This document shows, one piece after another, positions 35,313 through 62,099 of a stretch of DNA of 64,000 nt. The first letter of the stretch is position 1. Each line of letters starts with the position of its first letter. The notes below the pieces were generated by a model. The model saw only the letters and a program-made list of their open reading frames with translations, searched no databases and was not told the DNA's origin. A program made the position numbers and the translations under genes. Source of the DNA: Gemmatimonadota bacterium (GTDB taxonomy: Bacteria > Gemmatimonadota > Gemmatimonadetes > Gemmatimonadales > Gemmatimonadaceae); contig JAPLKS010000022.1 in NCBI GenBank assembly GCA_026387915.1, positions 1 to 64,000 of the forward strand, in the 5' to 3' direction.

Positions 35313-36725
35313 ATGTCCAGCGACGACCGTCACGGAAGCGCGCATGAACTCTCTCGCCGTACGCTGCTCGAGCGCGGTGCGGCGGCCGCGGCGTTTTTTG
35401 CGATCCCCGCTTCGCTGCGAGGCGATGTGGTGCGCGGTTGGACCGCCGCACGGCCCTACCTCGACGCCGCTCAGCGTGCAGAGCGATGGATTGCGCGCGC
35501 TGCCGTGAAGGGCGCGGCCGGCACAACATGGCCCGCCGATCCCGCTGACGCAAAATCCATTCAGAGCAATCTCTACAGCGGTAGCCCGGGCATCGTGCTC
35601 TTTTACCTTGAGTTGCATCACGCCACCGGCGACGCCGCATATCTCGCACAGGCACGCGCCGGCGCTGACTACCTCATGGCAACCCTTCCCTCGTCCGCCG
35701 CATCACTCGGCGACGAAGGCGCAGGGCTCTACACCGGCGTGGCGGGCATCGCATATGTGCTGGAACTCACGCGTCGCGCCAGCGGTGACGCGCGGTACGC
35801 CGAGGGCGTGGCGCGCGCTGCCTCGCTCCTGAAGAGCGCCCTTACGCCGATGGGCGCCGGAGCGGGATGGAATAACTCTACCGACATCATCTCCGGTAGC
35901 GGGGGCATTCTGCTCACCCTCCTCTGGCTGGGGCAAGCACGCGGAGAGTGGCCGGATTGGCGCCGCGACGCCGTGAAGGTAGGCGCGCGTCTCGTGGAAG
36001 TGGCCCAGCCAGAACATGGCGGACTCAAGTGGTCCATCTCCACCGACATGCCGCGACGCTACCCCAACTTCTCGCACGGCACCGCCGGCGTCTCGTACGT
36101 GTTGGCCACACTGTACAAGGAAACAGGAGAACGGCGCTTCCTCGACGCCGCGCTTTCGGGCGAGCAGTACCTACAAGCGATCGCTACACGAACCGCGCAA
36201 AACGGAATGAAGATTCTCCATTCCGAGCCCGGCGGCGAGCAACTCTTCTATTTGAGCTGGTGTCATGGCCCAGCCGGCACGGCGCGGCTGTATCGCCGTC
36301 TCGCGGATGTCACGGGTGATACGAAATGGCTCGACACCATTCCTCGCCTCGCCCAAGGCATCATCGACAGCGGCGTCCCCGATCAACACCCGGATGGCGC
36401 CGGCTATTGGAACAACATCTCGCAGTGCTGCGGCAACTGCGGCATCTCGGAGTTCTTCCTCGACTGGCATGCCGCCACAGGCGAGCCGCGCCATCTGACT
36501 TTTGCGCAGCGCGTAGTGGATAACACGCTGCAACGTGCCACGCCCGACGGCAACGGACTCAAGTGGATTCAGGCCGAGCATCGCGTGCGCCCCGAACTGC
36601 TCGTGGCGCAAACGGGATTGATGCAGGGCGCGGCTGGTGTGGGGCTCGCACTGCTGCATCTGGACGGCGCACTCGAAAAACGTGCGCCGCGCGTTCAGCT
36701 TCCCGACACGCCCCGCTGGCGCTGA
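35313..36725 (+). CDS. Tat-exported LanC-like (lanthionine cyclase-fold) protein with CCG zinc motif
   Basis: The protein has 470 residues. It carries a twin-arginine signal, SRRTLLERGAAAAAFFA (residues 14-30). The rest is an alpha/alpha barrel with LanC-type glycine turns in each repeat: SGSPGIV, TGVAGIA, SGSGGIL, SHGTAGV (H255), SWCHGPAG (C317, H318) and QGAAGVG. In LanC enzymes zinc is held by a Cys in WCxG and by the Cys-His of a CHG motif; here the second site reads Q-C372-C373-G-N-C376-G. A CCG motif is known from ProcM-type lanthipeptide synthetases. No LanB, LanM or precursor peptide gene is adjacent. Export of a LanC-like protein is unusual. A glycoside-hydrolase-like (GH127/GH88-type) barrel is the alternative. 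Confidence 0.82.
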   Translation: MSSDDRHGSAHELSRRTLLERGAAAAAFFAIPASLRGDVVRGWTAARPYLDAAQRAERWIARAAVKGAAGTTWPADPADAKSIQSNLYSGSPGIVLFYLELHHATGDAAYLAQARAGADYLMATLPSSAASLGDEGAGLYTGVAGIAYVLELTRRASGDARYAEGVARAASLLKSALTPMGAGAGWNNSTDIISGSGGILLTLLWLGQARGEWPDWRRDAVKVGARLVEVAQPEHGGLKWSISTDMPRRYPNFSHGTAGVSYVLATLYKETGERRFLDAALSGEQYLQAIATRTAQNGMKILHSEPGGEQLFYLSWCHGPAGTARLYRRLADVTGDTKWLDTIPRLAQGIIDSGVPDQHPDGAGYWNNISQCCGNCGISEFFLDWHAATGEPRHLTFAQRVVDNTLQRATPDGNGLKWIQAEHRVRPELLVAQTGLMQGAAGVGLALLHLDGALEKRAPRVQLPDTPRWR

Positions 36726-36731
36726 CGCCCG

Positions 36732-37871
36732 TCAGCCGCCCCAGATCTCGCCGAGCACGCGCTTGAAGTTGCCGCCGAGGATGCCTTCGATTTGCGCGTC
36801 GGTGTACTTCCGTCGCGTGAGCCCCTCGGTGAGATCAAACATCCGTTTGGGGTGGTCTACCCCCTCGATGTCGGTCTTGGCGCGGAATCCATAGACGGCC
36901 TTGTAGCCGGCCTGGATTGCTTTGATCTGATCCGGCGGGAGCGCGTCATACCCGTGAAGATCCATGTCGCTGCCCACGCCGAGGTGTTCTGGGCCGGTGA
37001 GTTTCGCGACGTGATCGAAGTGATCGAGCAGGCTTTCGATAGTGGTGGGCTCGCTCCCCTTCACGAACATGCGCACGCCGGTGATGCCCATGACCGAACC
37101 AGCCTTGCCCATGGCTTTGATGACTTCGTCGGGCTTGGTGCGCGGGTGGCCACTGGCCAGCGCGCGGGCATTGGAGTGCGTGATCAAAACTGGTTTCTTG
37201 GAGACTTCAAATGCGTCGAGCGACGTCCGGTCGCCGCAATGCGATACGTCAACGGCCATTCCCACGGCATTCATTCTCTCCACAATCGACACGCCAAAAT
37301 CAGAGAGCCCTTCATCCCGACGCTCGGTGGAACCGTTGCCAATCATGTTGCGCGTGTTGTACGTGAGTTGCGACACGCGCTGCCCGAGGGCGTGAAAGGC
37401 TTCGACATCCTTGGCCGTGCGGAAATGCTCGGAGTTTTGTAAGCCGAGGAGCAACCCGGCGCGTCCGCTTTTTTTGGCGCGGTCGAAGTCGGCGGCGGTG
37501 TCGATGCGAGCGAACCACTGAGGGTGGCTCGCAATGAATCCGTTTTGCAGCGCGAGGTATCGGTAGCTGTCCTCATACGCTCCTGGGCCACCCATGCCCA
37601 CCGCGATATGAAAGGCGGAGATCCCTGATGCTGCGAATTCCGCCGCGTCAGCCGCCGTGAACGAGGCGGGCTTGCTCAGCCATTGCTCCATCTTCGGAAA
37701 ATTCAAGGTGATCGGACTCAGCATGTCGATCACCGTCGCCCGTTTCATCAGGTCGATGGTGCGCGCGGAGTATTCAGCGCCGCTCCACGGAAAGAGAGTA
37801 AAGCGGCCGCGGTTGAAGGCGGGAGCAACGGCGAACGCACTAGCGGCAAGGAAGGAGCGGCGGCTGAGCAT
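36732..37871 (-). CDS. exported M19 (membrane/renal) dipeptidase family protein with altered first metal motif
   Basis: The protein has 379 residues with an SRRSF Tat-like signal at the N-terminus. M19 landmarks are E148 in LQNSEHF, H211 in VDVSHCG, H232 in ITHSNARAL, R244 in GHPRTKP and the Asp in GVGSDMD. The first metal-binding motif, normally HxD in DGHND, reads VIDMLSP around D49, so the usual His and Asp ligands are absent. The family hydrolyses dipeptides, including those with a D-residue at the C-terminus. It ends 6 bp from the convergent LanC-like gene and is downstream of a D-aminoacylase-like gene, 27 bp away, likely one transcript. Confidence 0.9.
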   Translation of the reverse strand: MLSRRSFLAASAFAVAPAFNRGRFTLFPWSGAEYSARTIDLMKRATVIDMLSPITLNFPKMEQWLSKPASFTAADAAEFAASGISAFHIAVGMGGPGAYEDSYRYLALQNGFIASHPQWFARIDTAADFDRAKKSGRAGLLLGLQNSEHFRTAKDVEAFHALGQRVSQLTYNTRNMIGNGSTERRDEGLSDFGVSIVERMNAVGMAVDVSHCGDRTSLDAFEVSKKPVLITHSNARALASGHPRTKPDEVIKAMGKAGSVMGITGVRMFVKGSEPTTIESLLDHFDHVAKLTGPEHLGVGSDMDLHGYDALPPDQIKAIQAGYKAVYGFRAKTDIEGVDHPKRMFDLTEGLTRRKYTDAQIEGILGGNFKRVLGEIWGG

Positions 37872-37898: not shown

Positions 37899-39473
37899 TT
37901 AGCGCACAACCGGTCGGCGGACCGGCTTGCCAGGTAGCGCTTCCAAGACCAGCGCGCCCGCACGAATCACCGGCGTGCCATTCACAATCACATGACGCAT
38001 CCCTTCGGAGTGCGCGTTGGGAGCGGTGAAGGTGGCCTTGTCGGTCACGGTCGCGAGATCAAACACGACGAGATCGGCATCCTTGCCCACCTGCAGTCTT
38101 CCCTTCTGCTTCATTTGCGGCACGCTCGCTTCAATAATCTGCGCAGGAATGAGCGTCACTTTGCGCAGCCCCTCGCGCAACGACACCTTTTGCCGTTCGC
38201 GCACATAGTCACGCAGAAATCTCGTGAAGGTGCCCGCGCTGCGGGGATGCGCAAAGGCGTCGGCCGGCAACGGCCAAACATTCTCAGTGATCGTCTTTCC
38301 GTTGGACGTCCAAGGCATAGCATCTGATGCAATCGCCCCGCCGGGAAAGAGCACGGCCTGATCGAGCAACGCCTGGTCCGTGGCACTTTGATCCGGGCGC
38401 ATGAAGTGCACCACGATCCACGATCCAGGTGTTTTGGCCTGCGCTTCCGTGAGTGTTGAATCGTTGTACGGCTTTCCACCGAACTCAATGTCGCTCGCCT
38501 TCGCGCCACCCATCCGTTCGCGCCAGTTACCGCGGAATATCTCGGCGCCAACGACCGTGCTGCCGGCGGCATACGGATAGGCTTCCGTTGTGATCGGCAA
38601 TCCGCGCGCCTGCGCTCCGCGAATGAGTTCGGCGATGATAGGAATGTCGCGCGTGCTATTGCTATTGAGATGGCTGATGTGCATCTGCGCGCCTGTCGAC
38701 GCGGCAAGCGACACCAGTTCTTCAAACGCCTCGAACGATGACTGCGGTTCGATCACGCTCAGGTAACGCACATGCGTGTACGTGGGGACGTTGTATTTCT
38801 TGGCCAGTTTGGCGACTTCGTAGTACTCCTTGCGTCCGTGCCCAGGGGCGTAGCCAGCCAGCACACCAATCCCGAGCGCGCCTTCCTTGAGGCCCTGCTC
38901 TACGCGAGCCATAATGCGCGCCGTTTCGTCTGGTGTCGCAACCGTGTACTGCCACCCTGTCTTCTTCTGTGCTTCTTGGAAATAGCTGAGATCGCCTGTC
39001 GGCTCCATATGTTCTTTCTCAGCGACACGACCAAATAGCCACGAGGCCGAGAACCCATAGTTGATCGGACGCCCCTCGCGCGCCGCGCGGTCGTACGCGG
39101 CACCCACCGGCAGAATACCGGCCTCGAGTTCCAGACCGGTCGTGACGCCATCAAAGGCCTGCATGCGCGCCGCGGCGATCTGCTGCCCGTGCGCGTGCAG
39201 ATCAATGAATCCTGGCGCGACAACGAGACCGCGCGCGTCGAGCATCTCTTTTCCCGTGATCGGCGTCGCGGAGATCGCGGCAATCTTGCCCGCCCGTACG
39301 CCAATCCAGCGCACGGCATCGAGGCCGGTTTCGGGATCGATGGCACGGCCGTTTGCAATCACGAGATCGTAGCTGGCGGCGGGACGCCCCTGTGCCGGAA
39401 GTGTGCTCGCGACCGAGAGGGTCACGGCACTCAACGCAACGGAGGCGGATAACCGAAATGGGTGTCTGAACAT
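37899..39473 (-). CDS. exported N-acyl-D-amino-acid deacylase/D-aminoacylase-like amidohydrolase
   Basis: The protein has 524 residues with a signal peptide (about 1-27, STLPAQ). The amidohydrolase core begins YDLVIANGRAIDPETG, with the metal motif DLHAHG and further ligands in THVRYLS and HISHLNS. SDAMPWT matches the position of the essential Asp. The end (GRLQVGKDADLVVFD) closes the composite domain. The D-aminoacylase branch removes acyl groups from N-acyl-D-amino acids. Pairing with the M19 dipeptidase suggests scavenging of D-amino-acid peptides, for example from peptidoglycan. Confidence 0.9.
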   Translation of the reverse strand: MFRHPFRLSASVALSAVTLSVASTLPAQGRPAASYDLVIANGRAIDPETGLDAVRWIGVRAGKIAAISATPITGKEMLDARGLVVAPGFIDLHAHGQQIAAARMQAFDGVTTGLELEAGILPVGAAYDRAAREGRPINYGFSASWLFGRVAEKEHMEPTGDLSYFQEAQKKTGWQYTVATPDETARIMARVEQGLKEGALGIGVLAGYAPGHGRKEYYEVAKLAKKYNVPTYTHVRYLSVIEPQSSFEAFEELVSLAASTGAQMHISHLNSNSTRDIPIIAELIRGAQARGLPITTEAYPYAAGSTVVGAEIFRGNWRERMGGAKASDIEFGGKPYNDSTLTEAQAKTPGSWIVVHFMRPDQSATDQALLDQAVLFPGGAIASDAMPWTSNGKTITENVWPLPADAFAHPRSAGTFTRFLRDYVRERQKVSLREGLRKVTLIPAQIIEASVPQMKQKGRLQVGKDADLVVFDLATVTDKATFTAPNAHSEGMRHVIVNGTPVIRAGALVLEALPGKPVRRPVVR

Positions 39474-39612: not shown

Positions 39613-40491
39613 TTACCTGTTGCCCAGCGCACACACCACAAGCTGGTCGAAATCCCGACGGTAGTCATCCAGCGAGACCACCGTATGCCGCCGTGCGTTG
39701 TCGCGGCGGGTTGGCGTAGAAACCGCCGCCAAGCCGACGTCAACCAATGGGGAATACAGCTTCACCAGCCGCTCACCACGACGAGTCACCACCCCGGCGA
39801 TCGCGTAATAATGGTCGTCGATCAACCCCGCGAGGTCTGCTCGACCGGTCCGCCGAGCGAGGTCGCGAGTGGACGGCGTGCTCGTCACCATGGGGTGTCC
39901 TGCCGCAATGCCCTCCACGAGCCGCTGCCAGAGCGCGAGCCGTGAGCGTTTGTTCGGCGTCAGCGTTCGGCTCGGTGTGCCCGTCAACGCGGTGAGCGCA
40001 AACCCGCCGTCACCACCCTGATTGACGTGCACGTACCCATGTTGCCACGCGGCAAAGGCTTTCTCAAAGAGCGCCGGCCAAAGCACCTGTCCCCGAGAGC
40101 TCGAGCGGAGGCTGCGTCCGAACTTCTGATGGCCGCGCCTATCTACGGGAAACCGCGTGTCAACGCGAATGCGTACGGGCGCGGCCACCCCCCGTTTCCG
40201 CTCCCAGAACGTGACGGTATAGGTGCCATCATCGTTCGCAACAATGCCGCGCCGAATCAGCCGCGGGTGGCCGTTTGCGACGGCGGCGAGTGACGAGAGA
40301 AAGTAGCAGTCACCCAAATCGCCTTGGCCAATCTCATAGCCGGAAATACGACCGGCAAAGAGGTCGCCTTCATAGCGACGATAGTGAAGGCCAACAAATC
40401 GATGTCCGTCAAAATCCTTGCCGCGCGGCAGCGGCGGCTCGGAGAGCGATACTGGCGTGGGGTGTTCGAAGCGAGTCAATCGTGGCGGCAT
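39613..40491 (-). CDS. calpain-like (C2) cysteine protease
   Basis: The protein has 292 residues with no signal peptide. The calpain core is visible: GQGDLGDC62YFLSSLAAVA holds the nucleophile, LWPALFEKAFA is the typical following helix, and DDH227YYAIAGV holds the histidine. The third residue, Asn in the usual RNPWG, is replaced: the sequence reads KLYS247PL. Bacterial calpain domains are sporadic and mostly uncharacterised. Without the Asn activity may be reduced. It is divergent from the ACT-domain gene over only 52 bp. Confidence 0.85.
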   Translation of the reverse strand: MPPRLTRFEHPTPVSLSEPPLPRGKDFDGHRFVGLHYRRYEGDLFAGRISGYEIGQGDLGDCYFLSSLAAVANGHPRLIRRGIVANDDGTYTVTFWERKRGVAAPVRIRVDTRFPVDRRGHQKFGRSLRSSSRGQVLWPALFEKAFAAWQHGYVHVNQGGDGGFALTALTGTPSRTLTPNKRSRLALWQRLVEGIAAGHPMVTSTPSTRDLARRTGRADLAGLIDDHYYAIAGVVTRRGERLVKLYSPLVDVGLAAVSTPTRRDNARRHTVVSLDDYRRDFDQLVVCALGNR

Positions 40492-45807: not shown

Positions 45808-48800
45808 GTGACCAACATGACCGAATGGCTACAGTCTGTGCGCCTCGCGGAATACGCGGCGCTCTTTGCCGAACACGAAATCACGCTCGACGTGCTCCCG
45901 CATCTCACCGAGTCCGACATCAACGGACTCGGCTTGCCCATCGGTCCGCGCCGTCGACTGCTGGTGGAAATTCAGGCGCTCGCCGCTGCCGCTCAGCCGG
46001 CGGCGATCGTCGAGCGTACCGCGCCACTCAAAGAACTCGACTCCGCACCAAGCAGCGCCGAGCGGCGCCAGCTCACGGTGATGTTCTGCGATCTCGTGGG
46101 CTCTACGGCACTCGCCGAACACCTCGATCCCGAAGAACTGCACGCGCTGATGCAAACGTATCGCGCCGCCTGCGGTGCCGTCGTCGCACGCTATGAAGGA
46201 CATGTGGCGCAGTATCTGGGCGACGGCTTGATGGTCTACTTCGGTTGGCCCGTGGCGCACGAAGATGACGCCGAACGCGGGGTGCGCTCGGCGCTGGAAA
46301 TGGTGGAGGCGGTGCGGCAGATTCGAGCGGCGCGTCCACTCGCGGTGCGCATCGGTCTCGCCACTGGCCAAGTCGTCGTGGGCGATACGAGCCAAGACAA
46401 CGCCGAAGCGAGACTCGCCGTGGGAGAGACGCCGAACCTGGCGGCACGCCTCCAAGCACTCGCGGCACCGCACGAAATCGTCATCGCGCCCACCACACGC
46501 CGCCTCGTGGTTGATGCCTTTGACCTAACCGACCTCGGCGCGCGCGAACTCAAGGGAGTCGCACAGCCGGTGCCGGTGTGGCGCGTGGATGCCGCTCGTC
46601 GCACAGAAGGGCGCTTCAAAGCAGCGCACGGTGGTATGCAATTGGCGCCGCTGGTAGGTCGTGAAGAAGAGAGCACCCTGCTGGAGCGCCGCTGGCGTCA
46701 GGCGAGCGCCAACGATGGGCAAGTCGTGCTGATTGGCGGACAGGCCGGCATTGGCAAATCGCGACTCACGCAAGGATTGCGCGAGCGCATGACTGGGCCC
46801 TGCACCGAAATCCATTACCAGTGCTCGCCCTACCACCTCAACTCGCCGCTACATCCGTTTATTGAGCAGATCGAAGGCGCGGCGGGCTTTGCGCGCGACG
46901 ATGCCGCGGAACAGCGCCTCAATAAACTGGAAGGGTCGCTCGTAGGTGACGCGGCCCAGATTGCGCAAACGGCCCCCTTATTGGCCGCTGCACTCTCACT
47001 GCCGGTGGATCGCTATCCGCCGTTGGCACTCTCGCCGCAGAAGCGGAAAGAGAGAACGCTCGAGGCAATCGCTGGGCAAATCGAAGCGCTCGCGTTGCAG
47101 GGCCCGGTGCTGATGGTGGTGGAAGACGTCCACTGGATTGACCCGACGAGCCAGGAATTGCTCGAGCTACTGGTGCCGAAGCTGCGGCAGCTTCCCGTGT
47201 TGCTGGTGATGACGCATCGACCGGAGTACGTGCCCGTGTGGGCTACGCACCCCAACGTGACCAGCATCACGCTCAACCGACTCGGGCGAGCCCAAGGGGC
47301 GTTGCTCGTCGGCGCCGTCACCTCTGGCCGCGCCCTACCACCAGACGTGCTCGACGAGATTCTGGCGCGCACCGACGGTGTGCCTCTGTTCGTGGAAGAG
47401 TTGACCCGTTCGGTGCTTGAGTCGGGACTGCTACTTGAGGACGGCGATCACTACACGCTGCAGGGGCCGCTGTCCGCGTTGGAAATTCCCGCCTCACTGC
47501 GCGACTCGCTCATGGCGCGCCTCGACCGACTCGGCGCCGTCAAAGAACTCGCGCAGATTGGCGCGTGCATTGGACGGGAGTTTTCGCACGATCTACTTGC
47601 CAGTGTCTCGCCGTTGCTTGCCGAGCCGCTCGCGGCCGCACTCGAACGTCTGGTTGAGGCCGGGCTAGTGACGCAACGCGATGTGGCGCCATTCGCGACC
47701 TACACGTTCAAGCACGCCTTGGTGCAGGACGCCGCTTATGAATCGCTGCTCAAAAGCCGGCGGAGCGCACTGCACGCGAAGATTGCGTTTGTGTTGGAGC
47801 ATGAGTTCGTCGATCGTGTGAACAACACCCCGGAGTGGCTCGCGCACCACCACACGCAGGCTGGGAATCTCGCCCCGGCCATTCCGCTCTGGCGCAAAGC
47901 GGGCACCATGGCGGTCAGCCGCGTAGCGCTGAAAGAAGCCGTGGCGCACTTCCAGAACGGGTTGTCGCTGATTGATCAGTTGCCGCCGTCCGAAGAGCGC
48001 GATCGACTGGAACTCACAATCCGCGAACCACTCAACGCCGCGTGGACCGGTTTACGCGGTTGGGCCGCCGCCGAGGTTGGCGTCAATGCGGCGGCGATTC
48101 TCAAACTCGCCGAGAGTCAACGGAATGCGCAAAGTGTGCTCTTGGCCATCTGGTGGGTGTGGACGAGCACAATCACGCAGGGTCGCATCGCTGACTCGCT
48201 TCCGTGGGTAGAGCGGCTGGTCGCGGAGGGGCGAGAGTCCGATGACATCGACCTCAAGATGTTCGGCCATGCCACGGCGATGGTGCAGTACTTTCTGCAC
48301 GGCGACCTGCTCGAGTCGCGCGCGGAAACAGATAAAGCGCTCGCACTACACGACCCGCGTCGTTCCCAGCGTTGGATTCAGCTCACGGGGCACGATCTTC
48401 GCACCTTCGTGGAAGTGTACGCCTGCCAGCTGATCTGGATGCTGGGCTATCCGGAGCAGGCGGAGCGGATGAGCGAAACGAGCACGGCGCATGCGCGCGC
48501 CGACGGCCATGCGTTTGGGCTTGTATGGGCGCTCACCTTCAGCGCGTACGTCTTTGCGTATCGTCGCGAGCCGGCGCGGTTTATGGAGCGCGTGGATGAA
48601 GCCGACCGCCTGGCGCGCGAGCAAGGGCTCGCGTTCATCTCTGAGGTTTCCGCGCCACAGGCGCGCGGGATAGCCGCGCTCCAGAATGGTGAGTTCAGTG
48701 ACGCCATCGTGCTCCTGCGACGCGGGCTTGAACGGTGGACGAGAACCGGTGGCAATGTTCGCGTGCCATTCGTGAAGTCTGCGCTGGCGGAGGCGGTGGC

Positions 48801-49170
48801 GCGTCAGGGCAACCTCGACGCCGCGTTGGAGTTGATCGACGAATGCCTGGCGCAGATCGATCGACAGTCGGGACAGGAGCGGTTGTGGCTCGCGGAAGTC
48901 TTACGTCTCAAGGGCTGGATGCTGATGCGCCAAGAGCGATACGACGAAGCCGAGTCGCAGTTGCGCGCGTCCATTGACTGCGCGCATAGCCAGCATGCCA
49001 AGTCATGGGAGCTGCGCGGCGCCACGACGTTGGCGGGATTGATAGCAACGCAGGGACGGCGCGACGAAGCGCGCGCCATTCTTGCCCCCGTTTATGCGTG
49101 GTTCACCGAAGGCTTCGGCACCAAGGACCTGACGGAGGCAAAAGCCTTACTCGACGAACTTTCCTCGTGA
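45808..49170 (+). CDS. SAM-domain/class III nucleotide cyclase/AAA-ATPase/TPR protein
   Basis: The protein has 1120 residues from GTG at 45808, with GAGGGAGGG 5 bases upstream. Domains in order: an SAM domain (about 5-65, WLQSVRLAEYAALF); a class III nucleotide cyclase (about 85-260; metal Asp in MFCDLVGST and GDGLMVYFG, Arg in NLAARLQ); a large ATPase like AAA_16 (about 285-640; Walker A GQAGIGKS, Walker B LMVVEDVHWID); and about ten TPR-like helical repeats to the end. It resembles the soluble adenylate cyclase/MalT-STAND-like family. It probably senses a signal through the ATPase-TPR part and makes cAMP or a related nucleotide; the base specificity is not decidable by eye. Confidence 0.92.
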   Translation: MTNMTEWLQSVRLAEYAALFAEHEITLDVLPHLTESDINGLGLPIGPRRRLLVEIQALAAAAQPAAIVERTAPLKELDSAPSSAERRQLTVMFCDLVGSTALAEHLDPEELHALMQTYRAACGAVVARYEGHVAQYLGDGLMVYFGWPVAHEDDAERGVRSALEMVEAVRQIRAARPLAVRIGLATGQVVVGDTSQDNAEARLAVGETPNLAARLQALAAPHEIVIAPTTRRLVVDAFDLTDLGARELKGVAQPVPVWRVDAARRTEGRFKAAHGGMQLAPLVGREEESTLLERRWRQASANDGQVVLIGGQAGIGKSRLTQGLRERMTGPCTEIHYQCSPYHLNSPLHPFIEQIEGAAGFARDDAAEQRLNKLEGSLVGDAAQIAQTAPLLAAALSLPVDRYPPLALSPQKRKERTLEAIAGQIEALALQGPVLMVVEDVHWIDPTSQELLELLVPKLRQLPVLLVMTHRPEYVPVWATHPNVTSITLNRLGRAQGALLVGAVTSGRALPPDVLDEILARTDGVPLFVEELTRSVLESGLLLEDGDHYTLQGPLSALEIPASLRDSLMARLDRLGAVKELAQIGACIGREFSHDLLASVSPLLAEPLAAALERLVEAGLVTQRDVAPFATYTFKHALVQDAAYESLLKSRRSALHAKIAFVLEHEFVDRVNNTPEWLAHHHTQAGNLAPAIPLWRKAGTMAVSRVALKEAVAHFQNGLSLIDQLPPSEERDRLELTIREPLNAAWTGLRGWAAAEVGVNAAAILKLAESQRNAQSVLLAIWWVWTSTITQGRIADSLPWVERLVAEGRESDDIDLKMFGHATAMVQYFLHGDLLESRAETDKALALHDPRRSQRWIQLTGHDLRTFVEVYACQLIWMLGYPEQAERMSETSTAHARADGHAFGLVWALTFSAYVFAYRREPARFMERVDEADRLAREQGLAFISEVSAPQARGIAALQNGEFSDAIVLLRRGLERWTRTGGNVRVPFVKSALAEAVARQGNLDAALELIDECLAQIDRQSGQERLWLAEVLRLKGWMLMRQERYDEAESQLRASIDCAHSQHAKSWELRGATTLAGLIATQGRRDEARAILAPVYAWFTEGFGTKDLTEAKALLDELSS

Positions 49171-49790: not shown

Positions 49791-51263
49791 ATGTCCTCAC
49801 GTAGCGATCGCCACGTTCTCCGGCCAACGCCGGCGACCGCGGCCCAGAAGTCCTTGGCCGCCTCGAAGAACGCTGGGAGCAAAGCTCGACTGCCCAAGCT
49901 CCCACCCAAGCCGGAAGAAATGACGTGGCGTGATTATCTCATCATGCTCCTGCATATCGGCGCCGAGCTCGAGCACGCGCTCATGGTGGAGTACCTCTAC
50001 GCTGCATACTCGCTCGGCGGGGACGATGCCGCAAAGCACGACGACCGCGTACGCGAGTGGCGCGACACCATCCTCACCGTGGCGCGCGAAGAAATGGGGC
50101 ACCTCATCACGGTGCAAAACCTCCTGCTGCTTGTTGGCGGCCCGGTGAGTTTTGAACGGCGCGACTATCCGTGGAGCAGCCCGTTCTATCCGTTTGAGTT
50201 TCGTTTGGAGCGGCTCTCGCTCAAGTCGCTCGCGTGCTACGTCTACGCGGAGATGCCTCGCACGCTCGTCACACCCGCCGACAAAAAGGTCCGGCGCGAT
50301 GTGGTGAAACTCGTCGGCCCCGACGCCCCCACGGTGGGCGAGATCTACGATCGTATTATTGAAGTGATCGGCAATGAAAAATTGATTCCAGATTCGATGT
50401 TCAACGCGGACTCATACGCGTTTCAGTCCACATGGGACGAGTGGGGACGCGGCTACCGGCCGCCGAACCACCAGCCGTATGCCAAGCATCCAGAAATCCC
50501 GCCGGCGCACGAGCGCAAGACACGCGTCATCGTCACGCAAATGGCGACGCGCACCGAAGCACTCGACGCGCTCCGTGACATCGCCGGACAAGGAGAAGCC
50601 GAGCATCTGCGCTCGGATGCGAAGATGGAAGAGTCGCACTTCGATCGCTTTGCGCGGATCTTCCGCGAGTATCAGGCCATTCTGAAGAAAGACCCCAAGT
50701 GGTCGCCGAGTCGCCCGGTGCCTGAGAATCCGTACGCGGGCGAAGCCGAGTATGCACCAGAAGGCACGACGGCCGTTTCGAATCCGGCCTCGATGGCCTG
50801 GGCAAGCCTCTTCAACGTCCGCTATCGGATTCTGCTCTCGCTGCTCACGTACACGTTCCGTATTCCCCGAGACGCGCCGGAGTCCGCCAAGCTACGGCGC
50901 GCATCCATGCTGGCTCGCACCTTTGGGGAGATGTACAACCTCAAGGCGGTCGCCGGTGTGCTCGTGCGGTTGCCACTCGCTGGGCCTAGGGGCGTGAAAC
51001 GGGCGGGGCCGCCCTTCCAACTCCCCTACACGCTCACGCCTCCGCTACCGGAAGCGAACTATTGGCGCCTGCATCTCGATCTGCTCGACGCCAGCAAGGA
51101 GCTCGCCGAGAGTTTGCTCGACTCCAAGCGACACCACACAGCAGACGCGCCAACAGACGGCACACGGTATCTGCACGCCATGCTCGAGGCCGACCACGCG
51201 TCGAGAACGTGGATTGAAGGCATTCTCGCTGGCATCGACTTCAGTCGGAGGTTGCTCGCATGA
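49791..51263 (+). CDS. VioB/RebD-like ferritin-fold protein, first gene of a CTQ-type operon
   Basis: The protein has 490 residues. ELEHALMVEYLYAAYSL, EEMGHLITVQNLLLLVGGP, AEHLRSD and EESHFDRF place the four-helix metal ligands. ASMAWASLFNVRYRILLSLL and RRASMLARTFGEMYNLK, then LAGPRGVKRAGPPF, parallel the C-terminal half of VioB/RebD, the enzymes that couple two imino acids in violacein and rebeccamycin synthesis. The large N-terminal half of those proteins is missing here; residues 1-50 are only a low-complexity leader. The stop overlaps the next start by 4 bases. Enzymatic role unknown: diiron oxidase or coupling partner of the LodA-like protein are both possible. Confidence 0.85.
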   Translation: MSSRSDRHVLRPTPATAAQKSLAASKNAGSKARLPKLPPKPEEMTWRDYLIMLLHIGAELEHALMVEYLYAAYSLGGDDAAKHDDRVREWRDTILTVAREEMGHLITVQNLLLLVGGPVSFERRDYPWSSPFYPFEFRLERLSLKSLACYVYAEMPRTLVTPADKKVRRDVVKLVGPDAPTVGEIYDRIIEVIGNEKLIPDSMFNADSYAFQSTWDEWGRGYRPPNHQPYAKHPEIPPAHERKTRVIVTQMATRTEALDALRDIAGQGEAEHLRSDAKMEESHFDRFARIFREYQAILKKDPKWSPSRPVPENPYAGEAEYAPEGTTAVSNPASMAWASLFNVRYRILLSLLTYTFRIPRDAPESAKLRRASMLARTFGEMYNLKAVAGVLVRLPLAGPRGVKRAGPPFQLPYTLTPPLPEANYWRLHLDLLDASKELAESLLDSKRHHTADAPTDGTRYLHAMLEADHASRTWIEGILAGIDFSRRLLA

Positions 51264-53617
51264 CCATTCGCGAACTTCGCATCCTCCCCCCGCTCGCCAT
51301 CGGCCGCCTCGGCTCGGCGAGCAAGCCGCTCGACAACTTCACGATGGAGACGAACCACGACAAGCCGTTGGGGTTTCGTCGCATCGTGCCTGCCGAAACG
51401 CTGCACGTGGACGAGAAAACGGGAGAGATCAGTCACCAAACGATCCCGACGTCGATCGAATTTAAGACCGTGCACGGAAAAATCCGCCCGGTCGCCCCGT
51501 TTATTGAAGTGTGGGCGCGGGTCGACGACTCCACGACATTCGTTCCCCTCACGCTCGACCTGCTCAAGAAGCACGGCGCAACTGCAAGCGACATTGCCTG
51601 GGATGTGACGGTCGGCAACCGCAAGGTTGAGCGTCGCACGGGTCATGCAGGCGACCGCGTCGAGGCCGTCACCGGCTCGTTCTCTGATCACGGCAAGCAG
51701 CCGCTCACTGGGCACAGTCCGCATTTTCTCTCAAAGAAACACACGATCGACTTCGGCAGCGTGCGGTTCATCAAGCCCAATCACGCACACCCCGAGATTC
51801 GACTGCGCTTTTCCCCCGCCAAGGGTTTGATCTACGGACCCAAGATCACGGCGAAGGAATTCAAGAAGATGCAGGAGGCGGACCCGAGCGTTCACAATCT
51901 CTATCGGGTGCCTGCGAAGCAGGCCGTCTATAACAAAACCAAGGGATGGTGGAAGTTTTCGATTCCGCCCGAAGTGCGAAACGCGGACCCGAGCGTCACC
52001 AAGTTCTACAACGAAACGATGCCGCCGGCGTTGTTTGCGATCATCCCACCTGGTCCGTGCTGGCTGAACAACAACGTAGCGGTGAGCCGTGGGTATTTTG
52101 ACGACGCCTGTGACGGCACGGTGCACGTCAAGCTCAAGGTGGGCGGCAAGAAACTCACGGCCGTTGGGCGGATCGTGGCGGCACCGCCGGCGCTGGTTCC
52201 GGATTCCCTCTTTGTGCGCAGCCTCGCCGACGACATTGATCAGGTGATCTTTGGCCCAGACGTCCCAAAGAGCGAGACGGTCGATGTGACGCGGGCCCGC
52301 GCCGAGGACATTGTGCGTCGTGCCTTCGAGACCGTGCGCTTTTTGAACGTCGCGGTGATGAATGGCAACCCAGTTCAGGGGCGCGATCCGCTCGACATCG
52401 ACACCATGCCGGCTGAAGAAGCGTTCGATAACTATCGGCTCATGCGTCCGGTGTTCGCACCGCATTCGGCTGACACGCTCGCCATCATGGGGTTACACCA
52501 GCGTGTCTACGCCACCATGCGAAGCGGCGCCGCACCCTGGTTTCCCGTCGTCCTCCGCAAGCCAAACGAGGTCGCCGACTTCACTGACAGCGGCCGCCGC
52601 AAGATGCCAGCGTTGATGGCCGGCGCCGACGGCAACTACCTCGCGCTCACGTACCGGCAGATTCAGACGATTCAGGCGGCATCAAAGGCGCCGCTCGATA
52701 TGCCCAATACGGATATCACCATCGAAGCCGATACGAATCCGGCACGATTGATTCCGCGCAACGCATCCGCTCGGCGCGCCGCCGAAATGCATCACGTGGC
52801 CATGGGCAATCCCGTGAGCTCCCGCCCCGTCACGGCCATCGGCAATTGCACACCAGGAATGGAGGTGGACTTCCGCGCGGTGTGGCGCCGCGTCTTTGAG
52901 GGCATCGTCCTGCGCGAGTATGACAATCTTGTCTTGGAGTCTGACGACAAGAAATACCGCCACCTGGTGGGCCATCGGTTGCTCAAGGTGGAGTATCAAC
53001 GGCCGTCGGGGAGTGGAAAGAAATCGCAGGCGTCATTCCTTACGATGACCACGCAGATCGGGCCGAATCCGTACGACACCGCCACCGAGTCCGTAGTGCT
53101 GTCATTTGAAGCCAGCCCGGATGGCGTCGCGCCACTCGAGTGGTCGAACCTGCTCGCGTACATGCTGCACGAGCGTGCCGGCAAGACGGTCACCTGCTAC
53201 TTCAGCGCCGACAACGAAAACCTCGGCATGATCGCGTGGAATCCGAAAGACAAGCACATCAAGATGACGCTCTCCGTACGCGAGTTCTTCGACGGGGACA
53301 CCGCCATGATCGCGCCCGTGCTCGCTAAACCGGGCGAACTGACGCAGGGGCTCTGTTCTCCCTGGCAGAACGATTACCGCGAGTGCTCGTGCTACTACTG
53401 GGCATCGGCGCGGCCAGACTTTGTGAACGTCGAAGCCGCACCCTCCGGAATGGCGGTGGGCGACAACTGGCTGCAGAAGACGCGTACCGGCGAATACGTG
53501 CCCGACGATTACGCCGACACGCGACTCGTGTTGTACGACGATCTCTTCAACGAGTGGGAGAAGTGGCTGCGCTTCGCGGTCAAGGGTCAAGACGCAGAAG
53601 GTGAGGCCAAGCGGTGA
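51260..53617 (+). CDS. LodA/GoxA-like putative CTQ-containing oxidase
   Basis: The protein has 785 residues and no signal peptide. The N-terminal LRILPPLAIGRLGSA parallels the HPAIGIARVGNS start of LodA-type lysine and glycine oxidases. GNC530TPGMEVDF parallels their PGIE block, and PGELTQGLC699SPW702QND followed by REC709SC711YYW714ASARPDF parallels the PWQAD...C...W..RP block. Cys and Trp candidates for a CTQ crosslink are therefore present, though the exact pair cannot be assigned by eye. Only seven cysteines occur (267, 284, 530, 646, 699, 709, 711). The gene is coupled by 4-base overlaps to the genes on both sides, including a radical SAM maturase, so this is the probable substrate of modification. 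Confidence 0.75.
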   Translation: MTIRELRILPPLAIGRLGSASKPLDNFTMETNHDKPLGFRRIVPAETLHVDEKTGEISHQTIPTSIEFKTVHGKIRPVAPFIEVWARVDDSTTFVPLTLDLLKKHGATASDIAWDVTVGNRKVERRTGHAGDRVEAVTGSFSDHGKQPLTGHSPHFLSKKHTIDFGSVRFIKPNHAHPEIRLRFSPAKGLIYGPKITAKEFKKMQEADPSVHNLYRVPAKQAVYNKTKGWWKFSIPPEVRNADPSVTKFYNETMPPALFAIIPPGPCWLNNNVAVSRGYFDDACDGTVHVKLKVGGKKLTAVGRIVAAPPALVPDSLFVRSLADDIDQVIFGPDVPKSETVDVTRARAEDIVRRAFETVRFLNVAVMNGNPVQGRDPLDIDTMPAEEAFDNYRLMRPVFAPHSADTLAIMGLHQRVYATMRSGAAPWFPVVLRKPNEVADFTDSGRRKMPALMAGADGNYLALTYRQIQTIQAASKAPLDMPNTDITIEADTNPARLIPRNASARRAAEMHHVAMGNPVSSRPVTAIGNCTPGMEVDFRAVWRRVFEGIVLREYDNLVLESDDKKYRHLVGHRLLKVEYQRPSGSGKKSQASFLTMTTQIGPNPYDTATESVVLSFEASPDGVAPLEWSNLLAYMLHERAGKTVTCYFSADNENLGMIAWNPKDKHIKMTLSVREFFDGDTAMIAPVLAKPGELTQGLCSPWQNDYRECSCYYWASARPDFVNVEAAPSGMAVGDNWLQKTRTGEYVPDDYADTRLVLYDDLFNEWEKWLRFAVKGQDAEGEAKR

Positions 53618-55026
53618 GTGTGATGGGTACGGACGCCGCACCCGTACGGCCTGACGCGCCGTCCGCACGCACTGAGGCGATGAGGCACGAGGGACGATCC
53701 TTCATGGACGCCTCGTCGCCTCGTTCGCCCGCGGCGCATCTGCTCAGCTCCGAAGCGGGGCGCCATCTCTTCGTTCCCGATGGAAGCCGACTCTTTGATG
53801 CCGACGCGAGCCTGTTCGCGCAGTTCGAGGCAGCCATCGACAGGGGTCACGCCGATGCGCTGCTCGATGACGTGGGATTGCGTGGCACGCCGTTCATTGA
53901 CGACGAGCCGCTGACGGCGCCACCGCTGCACGCCCTCTCGCTCGCCATCGCCCAGAAGTGCAATCTGGGATGTACCTACTGCTATGCACAGCAGGGAGAG
54001 TTCGGTGGAACCGCGCGAAACATGGCACGCGAAGCCGCCGAGCAGGCGGTCAATCTGTTGGTGGGCGGTGCGGAGCCAGGCGCGCGACTGAATCTCGCCT
54101 TTTTGGGTGGTGAGCCGCTCGCCAATCGCGCGCTATTACAGGAGACGACGCGCCGAGCGGCGATGTTGGCGGCGGAACGGAACGTGACGCTCGGGTTCTC
54201 CATTACGACCAACGGAACACTGGTCACTGCGGCGGACGCCGATTTCTTTGAAGAGTTCGGTTTTGCCGTGACCATCAGCCTCGACGGACCGCGCGAGGCA
54301 CACGACGCGCAACGTCCATACAAAAGTGGTAAGGGAAGCTTCGACCGCATTATGGCGAACCTCGAGCCTATGTTCGAGAAACAGCGCCGGATGCAGGTCA
54401 CCGCCCGTGTAACGGTCACGCCGCGCAACATGATGTTGCGGCAGACACTCGATGAGTTCGTCGCCGCTGGTTTTCACACGGTGGGATTTTCCCCGCTCCT
54501 GCGCTCGCCCACCGGCCAGGGTGAATTGGAACGCGACGATCTTGAAGTGATGCTCGGCGAGATGATCGATTGCGGCCGGGAATTTGAACGCCGCACCGTG
54601 GCCGGCGAACGGTATCCGTTCGCGAACATGCTCAACGCGCTGCGCGAAATCGAACGCGGCACGCATCGGCCCTATCCCTGCGGCGCTGGCGCTGGCTACC
54701 TCGGCGTGTCCGCGGAAGGCGAACTGGCAGCCTGTCATCGATTTGTTGGGGACGCCGATGGTGCGATGGGCACGCTTGCAGAAGGAATAGATGCGGCTCG
54801 ACGCGCCACGTGGCTGAAGGAGCGGCACGTGCATCAGCAGGAGCCGTGCACGCAGTGCTGGGCGCGCTATCTCTGCGGGGGCGGCTGTCACCACGAAGTC
54901 ATCGCTCGTGGCCGGCCGGCCTGCGACTACATTCGCGGCTGGCTACACTACTCGCTCGGCGCCTATCTCCGGCTCACGCCGTACGGACTCGGATACGACC
55001 CACGTGTTCCGCGCGAGGTAGCGTAG
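53614..55026 (+). CDS. radical SAM/SPASM maturase, QhpD-like
   Basis: The protein has 470 residues from a GTG that overlaps the preceding stop by 4 bases. The radical SAM cluster ligands are C116, C120 and C123 (CNLGCTYCYAQ). GGEPL and ITTNGTL are the usual SAM-binding turns. A full SPASM domain follows with C356, C374, C412-x2-C415-x5-C421-x3-C425 and C437. The N-terminal 100 residues (HLFVPDGSRLFD) look like a PqqD/RRE-like or QhpD-type region. In quinohemoprotein amine dehydrogenase, QhpD builds thioether crosslinks between Cys and Asp/Glu. The likely target here is the LodA-like protein. It could also be a sactipeptide-type enzyme, but no precursor is visible. Confidence 0.92.
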   Translation: MSVMGTDAAPVRPDAPSARTEAMRHEGRSFMDASSPRSPAAHLLSSEAGRHLFVPDGSRLFDADASLFAQFEAAIDRGHADALLDDVGLRGTPFIDDEPLTAPPLHALSLAIAQKCNLGCTYCYAQQGEFGGTARNMAREAAEQAVNLLVGGAEPGARLNLAFLGGEPLANRALLQETTRRAAMLAAERNVTLGFSITTNGTLVTAADADFFEEFGFAVTISLDGPREAHDAQRPYKSGKGSFDRIMANLEPMFEKQRRMQVTARVTVTPRNMMLRQTLDEFVAAGFHTVGFSPLLRSPTGQGELERDDLEVMLGEMIDCGREFERRTVAGERYPFANMLNALREIERGTHRPYPCGAGAGYLGVSAEGELAACHRFVGDADGAMGTLAEGIDAARRATWLKERHVHQQEPCTQCWARYLCGGGCHHEVIARGRPACDYIRGWLHYSLGAYLRLTPYGLGYDPRVPREVA

Positions 55027-55032
55027 GCTGCA

Positions 55033-56478
55033 ATGACGCGCGTCACCACGGAGATCGTCGTCGTCGGCGCCGGACCCGCAGGATGCGTCTTTGCAACGCG
55101 AATGGCGCAACTCGGCTACGACGTCGTATTGATTGAGCGCGCGCGCTTTCCACGGTCGCACGTCGGGGAATCATTGAGTCCCGGCGTGATGCCGATGCTC
55201 GCGTTGATGGGATCGGCCGCGATTATCGAAGCCGTGGGTTTTCCGCGCGTCAGCAACGTGAGTACAAACTGGGAGGGCACGGAGGCGGTCCGTCACGATC
55301 CGCGCGCGCAAGGCATGCTCGTGGAGCGCGGCGCGTTCGATGCTGCCTTACTTGCGCGTGCACACGCGGTGGGGGTGCGCGTGCTGCAACCGGCGCAGGT
55401 TCGCGAACACGAGCGCACGCCGAATGGTTGGCGCCTCAACGTGGATGTTCCGGCCGAGTCGATGGAGCTTCACGCTCGTTTTCTTGCGGACGGCACCGGA
55501 CGTTCCGCTCGATTTGGTGGACGGCGCCGCACGATGGGGCCGCGCACGATAGCAATTCACGGCTACTGGACCGGCACGAAACTTCCGGACCAGCCGCGCA
55601 TTGAGGCCGGCGAACGTGAGTGGTATTGGGGCGTTCCGATTCCCGACGGGAGCTACAATACGCTGGTTTTTGTAGATGCCGAACGATTCCGCGCGGAACC
55701 CGGCGTTCCGCTCGATAATCGCCTCCGCGCGCTACTTGGTGAGTCTTTGCTGATGCGCGATACGCGGGGCGCAATACTCCGTGCGCCCGCGCGCGCCGCC
55801 GACGCCACGCCGTATGTCGATGACGACTGCGTCAGCGCGCATCACATCCGAGTGGGTGATGCGGCGCTCGCCATTGATCCGCTCTCGTCTAGTGGTGTGC
55901 AGAAGGCCATTCAGTCGGCGCTCGCTGGTGCGATTGTCGTCAATACGTTGTTGCGGCGTCCTGAATCCACAGATGCGGCCCTCACGTTCTACCGCGAAAG
56001 TCTTCAGGAGTCCGCCGTACGTCATCGACTGTGGGCCGGTAGTCACTATGCCACTGCGGCCGCGCGTTTTAGTGACGCGTTCTGGCACGACCGCGCTAGC
56101 AACGCCGACGTCATGGCGGCGGCACCGAGTATGATGCCGGCCGTCGCGCCAATTGCCGACGACGTACCGCTACAATTGTCGCCGATGACCGTGTGGGACG
56201 ACGTGCCCTGCCTCGGCGAGCAGTACGTTGAGCGCAAGCGCGCGCTCCGCCATCCGTTGCTCGATGGGCCGGTGGCGTATGTTGGCGGTCAGGAGCTTGC
56301 CCCGCTTCTTCGTGAAATGCCGTCGGGGCTCACTGCTCTGGAACTCGCGCAGGTGTGGTCGCGTGCGATGCCGACCAGCGTGGGGCACTCGGTCGCGCGG
56401 TGGCTCGTGGGGCACGGAGTACTCGAGCCTCTGACAGACGTCAGCGGTTCTATACGTCCTGCTTCGACGCATACCTAA
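55033..56478 (+). CDS. FAD monooxygenase of the LodB/QhpG (halogenase-like) type
   Basis: The protein has 481 residues. G12-A-G14-P-A-G17 is the dinucleotide motif. FPRSHVGESLSPGVMPML is the conserved loop of tryptophan-halogenase-like monooxygenases including LodB and QhpG. GDAALAIDPLSSSGVQKAIQSA is the second FAD region. The halogenase lysine and WxWxIP signatures are not seen. LodB and QhpG hydroxylate the Trp that becomes the quinone cofactor, so this protein most likely oxidises a Trp of the LodA-like protein. It lies 6 bp after the radical SAM gene. Confidence 0.9.
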   Translation: MTRVTTEIVVVGAGPAGCVFATRMAQLGYDVVLIERARFPRSHVGESLSPGVMPMLALMGSAAIIEAVGFPRVSNVSTNWEGTEAVRHDPRAQGMLVERGAFDAALLARAHAVGVRVLQPAQVREHERTPNGWRLNVDVPAESMELHARFLADGTGRSARFGGRRRTMGPRTIAIHGYWTGTKLPDQPRIEAGEREWYWGVPIPDGSYNTLVFVDAERFRAEPGVPLDNRLRALLGESLLMRDTRGAILRAPARAADATPYVDDDCVSAHHIRVGDAALAIDPLSSSGVQKAIQSALAGAIVVNTLLRRPESTDAALTFYRESLQESAVRHRLWAGSHYATAAARFSDAFWHDRASNADVMAAAPSMMPAVAPIADDVPLQLSPMTVWDDVPCLGEQYVERKRALRHPLLDGPVAYVGGQELAPLLREMPSGLTALELAQVWSRAMPTSVGHSVARWLVGHGVLEPLTDVSGSIRPASTHT

Positions 56479-59496: not shown

Positions 59497-59988
59497 ATGC
59501 ATCAGCCCGGTGTCGTGCTCCGCAGGTTTATCGTCGTGGCAGCCGTTACAATCGCCGGCTGTCAGCCAGCGGCAGCTCCAGCCGGCGGCGGTGATGCGGC
59601 CGCGCAGGCAGGCGACATTAAGGCGGTGGAAGCGGTGCTTCACGGCTGGTACGATGCCGCCGAACGCCAAGACTCCGTTGCGTGGAAAGCGGCGATGCTG
59701 CCGGAGTTCTTTATTGTCGAAGATACGAACGTGTTCGACAAAGCGGCGATCACCAAGATGGTCGTAGAAGGATTTCCCGTGGGCAGGGCGCGGGCCACGT
59801 TGAGTGACTTCCGCACGCAGGTGCGTGGCGACGTCGCGTGGTCGACCTTCCGCAACACGGAAGACTGGACGCCGAATGTCGGAAAACCCGACGCGCCACA
59901 CCGGTTCATCGAGTCGGTCGTCTTTCGCCGAGTAGATGGCGCCTGGAAGATGGAACGCTACCACGCCACCGCGATCAATCGCCGCTAA
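59497..59988 (+). CDS. NTF2/SnoaL-like (DUF4440-type) lipoprotein
   Basis: The protein has 163 residues with a lipobox at VTIAGC and a short Ala/Gly-rich linker, then the NTF2 domain (VEAVLHGWYDAAERQDSVAWKAAM, FFIVEDTNVF, FRTQVRGDVAWSTF, VFRRVDGAWKMERYHA). Function is unknown. It lies 17 bp before the penicillin-acylase-like gene on the same strand, so the two may be co-expressed. Confidence 0.85.
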   Translation: MHQPGVVLRRFIVVAAVTIAGCQPAAAPAGGGDAAAQAGDIKAVEAVLHGWYDAAERQDSVAWKAAMLPEFFIVEDTNVFDKAAITKMVVEGFPVGRARATLSDFRTQVRGDVAWSTFRNTEDWTPNVGKPDAPHRFIESVVFRRVDGAWKMERYHATAINRR

Positions 59989-60005
59989 CCTTCGTGGATC
60001 TCGAT

Positions 60006-62099
60006 ATGCGAAAACTTTTCATTGCCACTTGTCTGCTTGCGACGAGTTTCTCCCGCGCGGCATTCGCGCAGGCTGCGCCTACAGCGCCGGGGGCACTGGC
60101 TCCAGAAATTCTCTGGGATACCTGGGGCGTCCCACACATTTACGCCGCCACCGATGCCGGCGCCTTCAAAGCCTTTGGCTATGCGCAAATGCAAGCGCAT
60201 GGTGACCTCATCTTGAAACTGTACGGTCAGGCGAGAGGGCGCGCCGCTGAATACTGGGGCGAGTCGCATCTCACCACCGACCGCTTTGTGCGCACGCTGG
60301 GAATCACGCAGCACGCTGCGCAATCATATCGCACAATGTCGCCCGCCCTGCACGCCAACGTCGCGGCGTTCGCGGCGGGCATCAACGCCTACGTCGCCCA
60401 GCACCCCGACAAGATCGCGGACAGCGTGAAGGTGGTGCTCCCGGTGACGGCCACCGATGTGGTCGCGCATACGGAACGGGTCATCTACTACTTGTTCATG
60501 TTACTCGGACAGGTGCAGATGCCCAGCAAGTTCAACGATGCATCCAAGCCCGGTTCGAACATGTGGGCCATCAGTGCCGGTCGCTCCGCGTCGGGGCACC
60601 CGATGTTACTGGGCAATCCGCATTTGCCATGGAGTGATCTGTACCTGTTCTTTGAATCGCAGATCACCGCCCCCGGTCGTGATTTCTACGGCACCACGCT
60701 CGTCGGCTTTCCTGTACCAGTCATCGGATTCAACAACAACGTGGGCTGGTCGCATACCGTCAACACACAGGACGGCGTGGACGACTATACCCTGACCCCG
60801 CGCGGCAACGGCTACTTGCTTGACGGGGCTGAACGGGCCTTCACCACGCGGAACGAGATTCTCAAAATCAAAAGCGCCACCGGCCTGCGCACGGAGACAA
60901 TGCGCGTCCGCACCTCCGTCCACGGACCAGTATTCGACGACAGCACCGGCACACTCCGCGCCGTGCGCATTGCGGGCCTCGACGACCCGAACATGCTCGA
61001 ACAATGGTGGAAGATGGGCGCGGCAACCTCCATGAAGGAGTTTGAATCCGGCGTGCGCGGCATGCATGTGCCGTTCTTCAATATCATGGCCGCCAGCCAC
61101 GATGGTCACATCTACTATTTCTTTGGCGGAAAAACCCCTAAGCGCGTGCGCGGTGACGGCGCTTTCTGGCGCGCTCCCGTACGCGGCGACAGCTCGGCGC
61201 TCATCTGGAAAGAGACCCTCGCCTACGATCAACTTCCGCACGTGATGGACCCGCCGTCGGGCTGGCTGCAGAACGCCAACGATCCGCCCTGGACGGTGAC
61301 CTGGCCCCTCGTGTTCAAGCCGGATGCCTATGCCGCCTACGTGGCGCCGCGTGAAATGTCGTTCCGCCCGCAGCGTTCCGCGGCCATGCTGATGGCCGAT
61401 AGCAGTATCACTTTTGACGAGCTCGTGCAGTACAAGCACTCCACGCACATGTTGCTGGCGGACCGTGTGCTTCCGGAACTCCTCGCCGCCGTACGCATCA
61501 CGGGCGACGCCGACGCCAAGCGGGCGGCCGTTGTGCTCGCGGCGTGGGACGGCAACGCGAACGCCGACAGTCGCGGCGCCGTGCTCTTCAGCGCGTGGGT
61601 GCAGCAATGGCTCGGACCGGTGGGCGAAAAAGCATTCGCGCGCCCATGGCGACTCGAGGCGGCGGTTTCCACGCCGTCCGGCATCGCCGATCCCGCACGC
61701 GCAGTGAAAGCATTGAGCGCCGCCGCGCTCCTCACCGAAAAGAACCACCATGCGCTCGACGTCGCATATGGCGACGTCAACCGCTTGCGCTACGCGGGCA
61801 AAGATCTTCCGGGCAACGGCGCAGCGGGTGACCCGTTTGGCGTATTCCGCGTCGGTTACTACGCGCCGCAACCAGACGGCAAGTCGGTGTTCAGCGCGGG
61901 GGACAGCTACTATCAGGCCGTGGAATTCGGCACACCCCTCCGCGCGAAAGTGCTCACCGCCTACGGCAACGCTTCGCAACCGAGTTCACCGCACCGCGGC
62001 GACCAACTCGAACTCTTTGCCGCCAAGCAAATGCGCGATGCGTGGCGCACGCGGGCAGAAGTGCTCAAACACCTCGAGTCAAAGGACGTGATCCGCTAG
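60006..62099 (+). CDS. second penicillin acylase family Ntn hydrolase, exported
   Basis: The protein has 697 residues from ATG at 60006; the earlier in-frame region overlaps the lipoprotein gene. A signal peptide (about 1-22) is followed by ILWDTWGVPHIYAA, the alpha-chain start. The nucleophile is S184 in KPGSNMWAIS, and LLGNPHLPW follows as the oxyanion neighbourhood. Compared with the homologue at 5.9-8.2 kb the alpha chain is about 30 residues shorter, and the two are only distantly alike, so they are not a recent duplication. Acyl specificity is unknown. Confidence 0.92.
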   Translation: MRKLFIATCLLATSFSRAAFAQAAPTAPGALAPEILWDTWGVPHIYAATDAGAFKAFGYAQMQAHGDLILKLYGQARGRAAEYWGESHLTTDRFVRTLGITQHAAQSYRTMSPALHANVAAFAAGINAYVAQHPDKIADSVKVVLPVTATDVVAHTERVIYYLFMLLGQVQMPSKFNDASKPGSNMWAISAGRSASGHPMLLGNPHLPWSDLYLFFESQITAPGRDFYGTTLVGFPVPVIGFNNNVGWSHTVNTQDGVDDYTLTPRGNGYLLDGAERAFTTRNEILKIKSATGLRTETMRVRTSVHGPVFDDSTGTLRAVRIAGLDDPNMLEQWWKMGAATSMKEFESGVRGMHVPFFNIMAASHDGHIYYFFGGKTPKRVRGDGAFWRAPVRGDSSALIWKETLAYDQLPHVMDPPSGWLQNANDPPWTVTWPLVFKPDAYAAYVAPREMSFRPQRSAAMLMADSSITFDELVQYKHSTHMLLADRVLPELLAAVRITGDADAKRAAVVLAAWDGNANADSRGAVLFSAWVQQWLGPVGEKAFARPWRLEAAVSTPSGIADPARAVKALSAAALLTEKNHHALDVAYGDVNRLRYAGKDLPGNGAAGDPFGVFRVGYYAPQPDGKSVFSAGDSYYQAVEFGTPLRAKVLTAYGNASQPSSPHRGDQLELFAAKQMRDAWRTRAEVLKHLESKDVIR

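Follow-up and report, generated by a model that had tools for sequence, protein, structure and literature searches.

A predicted exported LanC-like protein with a three-cysteine motif in a Gemmatimonadota genome without LanM, LanL or LanKC synthetases

LanC enzymes are either cytosolic lanthipeptide cyclases, which form thioether rings, or eukaryotic repair enzymes, which add glutathione; the beta-L-arabinofuranosidases of GH127/GH146 are helical barrels. In LanCL1, a zinc ion activates the thiolate, one histidine protonates the enolate, and a second histidine, directly after the first zinc cysteine, stabilises it (PMC9934072). The latter residue is found in eukaryotic LanCLs, ProcM and HalM2, its place being taken by tyrosine in most bacterial LanCs (PMC9934072). 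Orphan LanC genes as such have been reported before (PMC3091789); in the literature searched, no description of an exported or a Gemmatimonadota LanC-like protein turned up. We analyzed a 64,000-nucleotide stretch of the Gemmatimonadota bacterium contig JAPLKS010000022.1 (positions 1 to 64,000, hereafter the window), which carries the following gene:

35313 to 36725, forward strand: predicted exported LanC-like protein (PF05147, E 6.8e-39; AlphaFold2 pTM 0.88; top Foldseek matches LanCL2, CuvL, MadC, LanCL1 and NisC)

The ORF starts with ATG and encodes 470 aa, of which residues 85-454 match the Pfam LANC_like model PF05147 with 133.9 bits against a cut-off of 23.2. Its scores against the NCBIfam models for LanM (TIGR03897; 162.9 bits, cut-off 304) and LanL (NF038150; 131.5 bits, cut-off 650) are well below threshold, so that by existing sequence models the superfamily is assigned but a named enzyme class is not. 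An AlphaFold2 model built from a 43-member alignment was confident (pLDDT 89) and poorly defined in the first 40 residues only, as would be expected of a signal peptide. The predicted fold is the alpha/alpha toroid of NisC and the LanCLs: the leading Foldseek matches in the PDB were LanCL2, CuvL, MadC, LanCL1, Arabidopsis GCR2, LicM2 and NisC (E 7.5e-12 to 2.4e-8), followed later, at lower TM-scores, by GH76 and GH88 folds (E >3e-6), while GH127 did not reach the top 50. Searching PDB sequences with a profile led to the same conclusion, with CuvL as best match (8car, E 1.2e-18), and did not recover GH127. The first-pass annotation had identified the protein as LanC-like and had set against this a GH127/GH88-like fold; the comparison with NisC and LANCL1 upholds the identification, on both the Pfam match and the fold, and the glycosidase-like fold is not supported, LanC proteins being closest, GH88 lower and GH127 outside the top 50.

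The N terminus carries a putative export signal:

35352 to 35435, forward strand: predicted Tat signal region, about residues 14-41 (SRRTLLERG plus a hydrophobic stretch; RR at residues 15-16; supported by conservation)

The call was made by an in-house rule and rests on the SRRTLLERG motif, the hydrophobic stretch and conservation; by this rule the protein has what defines a Tat substrate, a conserved twin-arginine motif ahead of a hydrophobic region. The rule returned Tat for 32 of the 35 Gemmatimonadota members, the remaining three showing RR by eye, and was positive in 6/100 random proteins used as a control. In Acidobacteriota, the signals are mostly of the Sec or lipoprotein type, lipoboxes are seen in one Planctomycetota member and in the member from Aminicenantes, and one alphaproteobacterial member resembles a Tat lipoprotein. 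There are two exceptions: a Pseudomonadales member (L038) without visible signal, and an Acidobacteriota fusion protein of 1442 aa (L192:4820-9145), in which a Sec-like signal is followed by DUF5107, TPR repeats and then the family LANC domain at residues 1050-1418. The Tat export proposed in the first-pass annotation therefore stands insofar as the twin-arginine motif is conserved among Gemmatimonadota members, but export is not tied to Tat, since the Acidobacteriota mostly use other signals. Judged from these N termini, export appears to be conserved in the family and its route (Tat, Sec or lipoprotein) to be variable, and nothing points to an extracytoplasmic site of action more strongly than this retention by differing routes.

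Orthologues were found in 31/298 sampled Gemmatimonadota genomes (E <1e-30) and in 12/297 sampled Acidobacteriota genomes (E <1e-60), two of the latter being zinc-less paralogues, and the family is also present in Planctomycetota, Aminicenantes and Pseudomonadota. More distant cousins, apparently cytoplasmic, occur in Nonomuraea, Streptomyces and Mesobacillus. No relative was detected in the viral contigs searched, and the defence library gave no match. The protein belongs to a bacterial family that is conserved and apparently undescribed. In the window's genus, one orthologue (L049, G084:C37:4590-5975) is broken by an in-frame TAG and is either a pseudogene or an assembly error.

Alignment to characterized LanC proteins places the predicted active site and a family-specific signature as follows:

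35883 to 35885, forward strand: codon of D191, equivalent of NisC D141 (profile alignment to NisC; invariant in the family)
36075 to 36077, forward strand: codon of H255 in PNFSHG, equivalent of the catalytic acid NisC H212 / LanCL1 H219 (alignment; role from PMC9934072)
36261 to 36266, forward strand: C317, predicted zinc ligand 1, and H318, at the LanCL1 H277 position, in WCHG (invariant in 45/45; H277 role from PMC9934072)
36426 to 36431, forward strand: C372 and C373, predicted zinc ligands 2 and 3, CCG motif (invariant in 45/45; column-aligned with CHG/CCG of LanM and LanL)
36564 to 36632, forward strand: C-terminal signature W418-x-Q420-x-E422-x-R424 ... Q433 ... Q438 (invariant in the family; absent from LanM/LanL domains)

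The motifs SHG (H255), WCHG (C317/H318) and QCCGNCG (C372, C373, C376), as well as SRR from residue 14, lie where they had first been read. Where covered, H255, C317, H318, C372 and C373 are unchanged in 44-45 of 45 aligned relatives, and D191, matched to NisC D141 via a numbering offset of 6, is invariant in the family. All six residues are invariant among zinc-type members and correspond to the catalytic and zinc residues of NisC and LanCL1; when LanM and LanL domains are aligned together with the family, the LanC catalytic positions share columns. By alignment, the protein thus has the Cys, Cys, His/Cys ligands and the catalytic His of the superfamily, with Cys instead of His as third predicted ligand. 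C376, which is Cys in only 14/45 relatives, is on this evidence outside the predicted zinc site; of the QCCGNCG motif noted at first, C372 and C373 are conserved but the last cysteine is not. Three paralogues are apparent metal-free offshoots, as judged from their residues at the three zinc positions: L098 (G260:C813), which has A/R/F, and L193 and L194 of Acidobacteriota, which have S/H/S and retain a Tat-like signal.

With LanCL1 and LanCL2, the eukaryotic glutathione-adding enzymes, the protein shares the fold (Foldseek E 7.5e-12, TM-score 0.74 on target), the WCHG motif with its Cys ligand and His, and the catalytic acid His, but it has Cys rather than His as third ligand, carries an export signal and is only about 17-18% identical. 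With NisC and class I LanCs it shares the fold and equivalents of D141, H212, C284 and C330, and it differs in having CCG instead of CHG, His instead of Tyr after the first Cys, and the export signal. That the LanC fold serves here as a non-catalytic binding or chaperone protein is distinctly improbable: the zinc-less L098, L193 and L194 do keep the fold family, but in the main family the metal and acid residues are all invariant.

The C-terminal patch (W418, Q420, E422, R424, Q433 and Q438) is without a known counterpart among LanCs and may indicate a different chemistry. One such chemistry would be that of a hydrolase or transferase using a zinc-bound cysteine nucleophile on a non-peptide substrate, for example a sugar, as in the GH127/GH146 arabinofuranosidases. 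The zinc site of GH127 is of the Cys3 kind, with cysteines next to each other, and the enzyme's nucleophile is likewise a cysteine (PMC10728902), so that the helical barrel, the ligand set and an extracytoplasmic use would all be shared, and the family-specific polar patch and the DUF5107-TPR fusion in one Acidobacteriota genome would also fit. The Pfam matches of the ORF to GH127 and GH76 are weak, that to GH127 reaching 43 bits as a whole-protein score without any significant stretch. We nevertheless consider this reading improbable, because LanC proteins are closest in fold, GH127 was recovered by neither the fold nor the profile search, and the protein retains H318 as well as the LanC acid, H255, and gives no sign of the Glu ligand or acid/base of GH127.

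Given that the ligand set is that of ProcM, we placed the family in an arbitrarily rooted tree comprising 72 LANC domains. The family, its cousins and one kinase-type CCG synthetase form one clade (support 98), to which a LanL protein and another LanC-family protein attach next (98), while the ProcM-type CCG LanMs of Nostoc and Halocatena cluster with CHG LanMs (100); the exported members alone form a single clade at low support (57-65). With the CCG LanMs inside the LanM branch and the family beside kinase-type synthetases, the three-cysteine site was probably not derived from ProcM. The label "ProcM-type" given in the first reading is thus apt for the ligands but not for descent, which the tree does not support. 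A published survey already contains three independent bacterial CCC clades (PMC11251773). The ProcM-type class IIa LanM cyclase domain shares with the family the Cys-Cys-Cys ligands and the His after the first Cys, but the family protein has no dehydratase domain, stands on a separate branch and is exported by prediction. The class IV LanL cyclase domains are represented by CuvL, the best PDB profile match, and share the QCCG motif, and kinase-type synthetases are nearest to the exported family in the tree; unlike them, the family protein lacks a kinase or lyase domain, has an export signal and bears the extra C-terminal signature.

The whole 3.58 Mb genome contains a single LANC_like domain, that of the ORF itself, and LanM, LanL and LanKC synthetases are thus absent, which goes further than the original remark that no lanthipeptide genes lie nearby. 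A LanB search of the genome gave no match, its control being likewise silent. A search for small ORFs across homologues found no conserved cluster, and hence no candidate lanthipeptide precursor, among the neighbours at near loci; in one Gemmatimonadota genus the spacing to the two flanking genes is about 1 and -4 bp, too tight for a precursor to fit in between. These results bear on whether the protein could be a lanthipeptide cyclase whose precursors are unclustered and undergo dehydration elsewhere, as the CCG ligand set might suggest, since ProcM acts on scattered precursors (PMC10027976). We regard this as highly unlikely: the genome lacks LanM, LanL and LanKC, LanB was not matched (though the control was silent), no precursor-like neighbour is conserved, and the family is predicted to be exported and lies outside the ProcM branch. 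The LanC fold, the complete LanC-type site, the export signals and the lack of a synthetase together argue that the role is probably not in lanthipeptide biosynthesis, as the first-pass annotation had suggested.

We propose, with a probability of roughly 40%, that the protein is an extracytoplasmic zinc-dependent LanC-fold enzyme, of a distinct family apart from lanthipeptide biosynthesis, that adds thiols to, or removes them from, peptides containing dehydroamino acids. Zinc held by C317, C372 and C373 would bind and activate a thiolate, H255 would give or take the alpha-carbon proton and H318 would stabilise the enolate, such that a thiol is added to dehydroalanine or dehydrobutyrine residues or, in reverse, eliminated from the thioethers. 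The substrates would be periplasmic, either small peptides or N-acyl amino acids, and the products may be passed to neighbouring exported amidases and peptidases in a pathway of peptide catabolism. The fold, the active-site residues, the export signals and the lack of lanthipeptide synthetases are supported computationally. What we infer is that metal is bound, that thiols are added or eliminated at dehydroamino acids, that a peptide serves as substrate, and in which direction the reaction runs. To our knowledge, the thia-Michael LanC enzymes are all cytosolic, which counts against thiol addition by an exported protein. That an exported branch is conserved, with its predicted site intact and no synthetase partner, suggests that bacteria use LanC zinc chemistry outside the cytoplasm for another purpose, and the small single-domain protein offers a direct test bed for the idea. 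We put forward more tentatively, and with some doubt, that a widespread extracytoplasmic LanC branch adds thiols to dehydroamino-acid peptides or lanthionine peptides, or opens thioethers in them, in peptide scavenging or detoxification; if true, this would be, in the literature searched, the first bacterial LanC chemistry outside both the cytosol and lanthipeptide biosynthesis.

Downstream of the gene lie two hydrolase genes on the opposite strand:

36732 to 37871, reverse strand: M19 membrane dipeptidase with a Tat-like N terminus (MLSRRSFLAASA), convergent, stop codons 6 bp apart (Pfam E 4.3e-73)
37899 to 39473, reverse strand: amidohydrolase of the PRK09061 subfamily (NCBIfam E 7.8e-218)

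M19 adjoins the family gene in two genera. Upstream of the family gene, a propeller-amidohydrolase (39% identity over 1100 aa) and a penicillin amidase (30% identical) recur in Gemmatimonadota and Acidobacteriota, and downstream a PLP decarboxylase recurs in Gemmatimonadota and Planctomycetota (about 50% identity); further neighbours include M20, S9 and M1 peptidases and threonine-dehydratase-like PALP enzymes. Hydrolase homologues make up 10/56 immediate neighbours as compared with 4/100 random genes (Fisher p 0.005), a difference that is overstated, the categories being post hoc and the comparison partly circular, with query families drawn from the neighbours and chosen after inspection. In the Acidobacteriota loci added later, at least 3/18 immediate neighbours are such hydrolases. 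Many orthologues in the family adjoin housekeeping genes (transketolase, Obg, LeuRS). The hydrolase neighbourhood may be background, because Gemmatimonadota are rich in exported hydrolases and the window is full of them: two of its genes encode penicillin amidases and one an M1 peptidase, and it also carries a propeller-amidohydrolase with 43% identity to the neighbour from another genus. Since the neighbourhood is catabolic, thioether opening or the detoxification of dehydro-peptides would be the most attractive version of the proposed thiol chemistry. The association with amidohydrolases and PLP enzymes, together with the invariant C-terminal signature absent from known LanCs, would also suit another zinc-thiolate chemistry new to the LanC fold, such as alkyl transfer, isomerisation, or amide or thioester cleavage, on a small molecule or a peptide; this we judge unlikely, as the protein keeps every residue that thia-Michael chemistry is known to require.

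Dense hydrolases and their relatives occupy positions 1262-30197 and 59838-62099 of the window, where two serine beta-lactamase-family proteins and a class A beta-lactamase-like protein accompany the amidases, the propeller-amidohydrolase and the peptidase mentioned above, along with a Sortilin/VPS10 protein and a peroxidase. Elsewhere the window encodes a bacterial calpain-family (C2) cysteine protease (39613-40491) and a multidomain protein that combines a SAM domain with guanylate cyclase, AAA and TPR domains (45808-49170). A small biosynthetic cluster may be present at 49791-56478, where a run of four genes encodes a ferritin-like protein, a 785 aa protein of unknown function, a radical SAM protein and an FAD halogenase-like protein.
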